DNA of 64,000 nucleotides, from the NCBI RefSeq assembly GCF_000195575.1, contig NC_015391.1:222501-286500 (forward strand). Reading direction: 5' to 3'. The position numbers and the translations under genes were made by a program. Under the pieces are notes generated by a model. It saw only the letters and a list, made by a program, of their open reading frames with translations. It searched no databases and had not been told where the DNA came from. Below, piece after piece: positions 45,754 to 46,114 of the stretch (its first letter is position 1; the number at the start of each line of letters is the position of its first letter). This DNA is from Carnobacterium sp. 17-4. Its GTDB lineage: Bacteria; Bacillota; Bacilli; Lactobacillales; Carnobacteriaceae.

Positions 45754-45850
45754 TAAAAAAAACCACCCATATAAAAAGGGTGGTAGAGGAGTCATTGCCA
45801 TTTACTTTGGAGGAGAAAAGGCAATATAAAAAGTTGGTTGTTATTGGTAT
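45754..45850 (-). ncRNA. Candidate C-rich small RNA A
   Basis: Read on the minus strand: possible -10 TATAGT (45862-45857), hairpin ATTGCC/GGCAAT (45825-45820 and 45799-45794) whose 20-base loop contains TCTCCTCC, the exact complement of an SD sequence, then linker GACTCCTCT (45793-45785), then terminator ACCACCC/GGGTGGT with eight T (45784-45754). About 97 bases. No plausible ORF. It is similar in build to the element at 45926-46030. The 5' end is a guess. Confidence 0.55.
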
Positions 45851-45925
45851 AAGTAAACTATAACGATAAGTTATGAAGAAAATGTGATGAAATTTATATA
45901 TATCCCTTAAGGTAATGATAAAAGA

Positions 45926-46030
45926 TAAAAAAGCTATCTCAATTAAGAGATAGCTAAGGGGATAAGACTCTTTTCAATAGGGGGAGAAAAGAGAGTGAAA
46001 ATAAATTCAGTTTTATTTAAACAACGCTTA
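45926..46030 (-). ncRNA. Candidate C-rich small RNA B
   Basis: Minus strand: possible -10 sites TATGAT (46042-46037) or TATAAG (46032-46027), hairpin CTCTTTTC/GAAAAGAG (45993-45986 and 45975-45968) with loop TCCCCCTATT, linker CTTATCCCCTT (45966-45956), terminator AGCTATCTC/GAGATAGCT with six T (45955-45926). Stem sequences differ from RNA A but the parts, their order and the C-rich loop and linker are the same. The terminator could also serve the DJ-1/PfpI gene upstream. Confidence 0.5.
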
Positions 46031-46032
46031 TA

Positions 46033-46067
46033 GTTTATCATAATCAATTAAACATCCTATGATAAAC
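46033..46067. repeat. Inverted repeat upstream of RNA B
   Basis: GTTTATCAT (46033-46041) and ATGATAAAC (46059-46067), perfect 9-base arms, 17-base spacer. It overlaps the possible promoter of RNA B, so it may be an operator. Confidence 0.5.
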
Positions 46068-46114
46068 AAGTAAAAAATTTAATGGAATTAAATTAAAAAA
46101 TACTTATTTAATCA

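Follow-up and report, generated by a model that had tools for sequence, protein, structure and literature searches.

A tandem pair of predicted Ref84-type small RNAs with a candidate promoter switch in Carnobacterium sp. 17-4

What is encoded by the short minus-strand segment ahead of a P-type ATPase gene in Carnobacterium sp. 17-4, and to which kind of RNA do its C-rich hairpins belong? The original prediction, made from the letters of a 64,000-nucleotide stretch of contig NC_015391.1 (the window), was a duplicated pair of C-rich small RNA (sRNA) genes. Indeed, the minus strand, on which all window features described here are located, contains two sRNA-like units between 46025 and 45756, in each of which a hairpin with C-rich loop is followed by a C-rich linker and a terminator. 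Unit A (45928..46025) is a predicted sRNA of ~98 nt and unit B (45756..45848) one of ~93 nt, the 5' ends of both being inferred from likely -10 elements and from the start points of family models. Upstream of the pair is a gene of the DJ-1/PfpI family (PF01965; 46115..46633) and downstream a gene encoding a cation-transporting P-type ATPase (PF00122, PF00689; 42940..45582). Part of the region was found by BLAST in 26 of the 59 genomes searched, the own genome counted. In one relative (G012), a group II intron match lies directly downstream of the sRNA pair (L013:2053-2325).

RNA folding reproduced the order of hairpin, linker and terminator for both units. In unit A, the hairpin (45968..45993) has the loop UCCCCCUAUU (45985-45976), which contains the predicted TCCCCCT (45985-45979), and is followed by a single-stranded linker with CUUAUCCCCUU (45956..45967; folding and alignment) and an intrinsic terminator with a T-run (45927..45955; pattern scan and folding). 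Unit B starts with an unpaired 5' tail, ACCAAUAACAACCAACUUUUU (45827..45848; alignment and folding), which is strongly conserved among B-type RNAs, and continues with a hairpin with the loop CCUCCAA at 45813-45807 (45793..45826; folding and covariation), a linker with ACUCCUCU (45785..45792; alignment and folding) and a terminator with a T-run (45756..45784; alignment, folding and covariation). The pattern scan caught the A terminator only, the loop of the B terminator being 9 and the limit of the scan 8. The C-rich loop predicted for B, TCTCCTCC, is present at 45816-45809, and the linkers and terminators of the two units lie at the positions given in the original prediction. The fold of unit A had a z of -6.1 (0 of 200 shuffles were as good) and that of unit B a z of -3.7 (1 of 200). 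Taken from the sequence, the locus would contain a pair of C-rich sRNA-like genes, duplicated and structurally constrained, whose RNAs probably belong to the type that blocks ribosome binding sites, as had been proposed.

A search of Rfam at the gathering threshold gave no match at the locus. A permissive search found Ref84 ('Enterococcus sRNA 84', RF02846) with 46.8 bits for B and 20.4 bits for A, both below the gathering cut-off of 52 bits; the same-locus ortholog of B in the sister genome G003 reached 62.9 bits and is above it. B matched the Ref84 model over its full length (positions 1-87 of 87), including both hairpins and the conserved tail, and A matched it over the full length but weakly and without the tail. 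Features in common with Ref84 are the 5' tail ACCAAYAACAACC, a U-rich spacer, a small hairpin with CUCC, the linker ACUCCUUUU, a terminator and several copies in some genomes. Apart from the scores of the window copies, the differences are the lack of the ACCAA tail and the longer C-runs in unit A, and the promoters, which have TCAYA repeats in relatives of the families f1, f6 and f8 but not clearly in 10 sampled enterococcal-type copies. We built a B-type model, R1, from 15 sequences at 14 distinct places (L009 and L063 being one place), with L002, the second B copy in the window genome, included and window B left out, and an A-type model, R2, from 13 sequences with window A included. R1 found window B with 62.4 bits (E 1.2e-10) and window A with 32.5 bits (E 2.3e-4; next best place 19.5 bits), and R2 found window B with 40.1 bits (E 9.7e-6). 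Since these matches are reciprocal, A and B are most simply paralogs. Intermediates exist: A of G006 had 46.7 bits with R1. In a sequence-only HMM test, in which one A-type row was left out, 1 of 400 composition-matched shuffles scored as high as window A against the B-type RNAs, so that the similarity is modest; for window B, five A-type RNAs and ten LhrC copies the numbers were 0, 0 to 7 (A of L014: 7) and 0 to 15 of 400, respectively. Most simply, B would be a Ref84-type RNA proper and A its diverged paralog or duplicate. A relationship to streptococcal csRNAs and Listeria LhrC RNAs, as suggested originally, held for the kind of RNA, C-rich and duplicated, and not for the family, the nearest of which is Ref84.

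Conservation of the C-runs in loop and linker had been set beforehand as one of two tests on which the prediction could fail. They are kept in all 13 aligned A-type sequences, and most of 36 B-type sequences, though not every one, have the loop CUCC and the C-bearing linker of B, so that the prediction withstood this test. With hardly any variation among the 13 sequences and no compensatory change, the A hairpin contributes no covariation; the A terminators vary in sequence yet still pair. MAFFT and RNAalifold misaligned the first hairpin of the 36 B sequences and gave just 4 pairs, so the structure was set by hand and applied to a chosen subset instead. In an alignment of 56 sequences, which includes one A-type RNA and was fitted to the tested structure and thereby favours it, 96.9% of the cells were paired, 12 of 13 pairs were changed on both sides and 145 cells were double-changed; shuffles had 33.8 (sd 4.7) such cells and slid controls no more than 24. 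It is highly improbable that the conservation reflects a tiny gene antisense to the RNAs, for which GGAG would serve in ribosome binding and the CAU ahead of the hairpin as ATG. The hairpins covary as RNA stems. Such an ATG is found near the antisense GGAG in 45 of the 56 B-type sequences, and many copies of f8 read MKKFVRVVLLV and enterococcal ones MKNKKV, but it is missing in window B (row L055) and in 10 others of the 56; several f1 copies stop after three codons, and 24 of the 56 frames reach 15 amino acids, with no common length. The antisense peptide is not conserved among the 56 sequences and was rejected. Opposite the B-type RNAs of L114 and L037, short frames such as MKKFVRVVLLV or MKNKKVVVG, seen in f8 and enterococcal-type copies, have a good ribosome site.

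The pair could also act in cis, as a leader or attenuator of the P-type ATPase gene, which it directly precedes on the same strand. This is very unlikely: each unit is closed by a terminator, the ATPase gene has a promoter-like site of its own (TTGACA-18-TATACT, 45692-45663), and relatives have runs of three to four copies. Furthermore, the window genome (G000) encodes, besides A and B, a second B copy (C2:1783216) that leads no gene, because both of its neighbouring genes run the other way.

At E ≤0.05, 62 of 148 genomes of the order had a Ref84 match, which exceeded the cut-off in 17; none of the 14 controls had one. At E 0.01, a level at which about three false genomes are expected and E-values are rough, R1 matched 130 of 295 genomes, in 40 of 74 genera; all 18 f1 genomes listed are among the 130. 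One genome had at least 13 R1 matches, 13 being all candidates scored there. In some f8 genomes, runs of three to four very similar B copies are spaced by about 195-215 bp (L029/G044, L115/G031, L062/G099). R2 matched 21 of 295 genomes, 13 of which belong to the 18 f1 genomes; some of the other 8, e.g. L108-L110, look like B-type RNAs that the A model picked up. With the exception of G015, the f1 genomes with A (12 of 13) have B downstream, on the same strand and within the same ~3-kb locus, and in G063 of f6 the A-then-B order is as in f1.

LhrC1-5, Rli22 and Rli33-1 of Listeria (RF00616) are likewise multi-copy RNAs of similar length with C-motifs in loop and linker and with 11-bp spaced promoter half-sites, and A and B could be true members of this family. 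The loop-linker-terminator plan is common to both, a third C-motif is present in the terminator loops of some relatives, and R1 found Listeria LhrC copies in register (23.0-28.2 bits, E 0.002-0.024; another with 19.4 bits), the best unrelated place in this search having 20.3 bits. Membership is nevertheless unlikely, since the RF00616 model gave the window pair 17.8 bits, far under its cut-off of 110, and G000 has no Hfq match. LhrC has three UCCC motifs, in the loop, the linker and the terminator loop, according to a section of PMC4132741, but in A and B C-motifs were found in loop and linker and in neither terminator loop. RF00616 was above its cut-off in five of seven genomes searched, all of one f7 genus, and not in G000. 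The second B copy of G000 (L002:1545-1649, i.e. C2:1783216-1783320) has C-motifs in loop, linker and terminator loop (CCCC), which is the LhrC plan, and two A-type RNAs (L014:1501-1603, L016:1500-1598) have UCCC in the terminator loop, too. Most likely, the pair works like LhrC and is by identity a Ref84-type pair with one diverged branch.

By eye, TAAACT (46032..46037), aligned to TATACT of relatives, is the likely -10 element of A, and TATAGT (45857..45862) that of B. Upstream of the latter is the direct repeat TCACATTTTCTTCATA (45872..45887), which follows the pattern TCAYA-N6-TCAYA and is proposed to be a response-regulator box; upstream of A are half-sites with the same 11-bp spacing (TTACT, TCATA and TTAAT; 46047..46073). 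Among 36 B promoters, which are mutually related so that z values are overstated here and in the sets below, the best lag-11 score averaged 9.19 versus 7.25 for shuffled sequences (z 19.6), lag 14 came second (z 7.7), and the best lag-11 pair was at exactly -39 in 30. L117, whose printed stretch is not homologous, and likewise L111 were not used. Lag 11 was also in excess, though weaker, in 13 A promoters (z 7.3; L107-L110 left out) and in ten Listeria LhrC promoters (z 5.7), where lag 9 was up as well (z 4.3); in ten enterococcal-type Ref84 promoters the repeat was not clear (z 2.2). The only exact match to the pattern in the window is the B promoter. The pattern as such was not enriched in the window (16 matches versus 21 expected) nor, with up to 2 mismatches, in the genome (78 versus 73 in the control). 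In the genome scan, the only exact match was the promoter of the second B copy and the window B promoter was one of four sites with one mismatch; the other three suggested, by eye, no regulator gene.

The original prediction had considered control by an inverted repeat at 46033-46067, but this palindrome was seen by eye in only 4 of 13 A-type promoters (G000, G002, G004 and G005, all of one genus); G003 has a degenerate form of it, and the other 8 lack it. It is restricted to close relatives and was dropped as a shared control site; what recurs is the 11-bp direct repeat. The palindrome, TTTATCATA/TATGATAAA, overlaps the A promoter and is possibly a genus-specific operator.

Streptococcal csRNAs are themselves controlled by a two-component system and are, as A and B, C-rich, intergenic and multi-copy, and the pair could consist of csRNAs under control of CiaR. 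The CiaR repeat is given as TTTAAG-N5-TTTAAG in part of PMC8186281. It is absent at A and B, the nearest CiaR-like repeat to A having 2 mismatches and overlapping the inferred start site, and it was not enriched in the window (202 matches with up to 3 mismatches versus 210 expected). R1 found no B-type RNAs in the five f3 genomes printed, f3 being taken as Streptococcaceae, and membership in the csRNAs is thus hardly credible.

Which regulator could bind the half-sites of the Ref84-type pair? In the window genome, as in G057, gnd stands in one run with genes for a response regulator and a kinase, and the two gnd-adjacent regulators are LisR-like and 76% identical; we take this gnd-linked regulator/kinase pair to be LisRK. 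In G037 of f8, which is rich in B copies, there is no regulator next to the gnd shown. Sections of PMC4132741 report that LisR is required for expression of LhrC and that induction from the lhrC5 promoter is almost lost when positions -57 to -59 are substituted. In two of the ten Listeria LhrC promoters, a TCATA half-site starts at -59, counted from the model start, so that the numbering may shift.

Candidate targets of B were searched for as complements of the B loop with up to 2 mismatches in 13. Such complements are located at the ribosome sites of four genes for binding proteins: a family-3 binding protein fused to a permease (PF00497, PF00528), a second family-3 binding protein (PF00497), a family-5 peptide-type binding protein (PF00496) and an NlpA-type lipoprotein (PF03180). 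According to part of a review (PMC8079631), LhrC represses oppA and lowers tcsA mRNA. The target k-mers were not clearly enriched, with 88 sites for B versus 73 in the control and 98 for A versus 123, and the sole exact B site outside the RNAs' own genes is not at a start codon. Two of the 88 B sites are these own genes, and the remaining 86 were read in sets of 28 and 58, with slightly different limits for start-codon proximity; a start codon with an open frame was close by in 10 and 21, respectively, and many sites are internal to genes. For A, 28 of the 98 sites were read, 6 of which have a start close by. The site of the best B candidate was compared at 30 homologous loci, 25 of which were read (all but L324 and L328-L331) and 23, those with a start, scored. 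All 12 bases are kept in G000 and G003 only, three homologs keep 10 and the rest 9 or fewer, i.e. the site is conserved in near orthologs only. ABC solute-binding proteins as a target class of B are a lead, not a result. Hfq had no match in G000 nor in seven of the other eight genomes searched; it was found in G057 only.

In sum, we propose, with a probability of roughly three in four for the explanation as a whole, that the locus encodes a two-component-controlled pair of Ref84-kind sRNAs that block ribosome binding sites without Hfq. Structure, conservation, paralogy and the promoter repeat are properties of the sequence; transcription, regulator, stress, blocking and targets are inferred. 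A and B would be tandem, trans-acting and separately promoted and terminated. A response regulator of the OmpR family, the LisR-like one encoded next to gnd being the most likely, would bind the 11-bp spaced TCAYA half-sites upstream of the -10 elements and activate both RNAs, probably when the envelope or surface is under stress. Through their exposed C-rich loop and linker, the RNAs would then pair with purine-rich ribosome binding sites and block translation, plausibly of mRNAs for ABC solute-binding proteins.

The original statement that no description exists stands for the locus, for which none was found in the literature searched, but not for the kind of RNA, which has an Rfam entry. The 'ref' names were coined by Fouquier d'Herouel et al., as cited in a section of PMC3166299; in the literature searched, no dedicated work on Ref84 was found by name or accession. 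A broader and more tentative idea, which we rate at somewhat less than even odds, is that a single family of envelope-stress sRNAs spans the order, with Ref84, the A-type RNAs and Listeria LhrC as its branches. LisR-type regulators would switch it via 11-bp phased TCAYA-like half-sites, and it would be Hfq-free outside Listeria and a counterpart of the csRNAs; the idea was rated slightly lower because lag 9 is also up in the LhrC promoters. Through this locus, the Ref84 family gains a broad distribution, a divergent second branch and candidates for its promoter switch and its regulator. The connection to LhrC suggests that findings made in Listeria may apply to many related bacteria.
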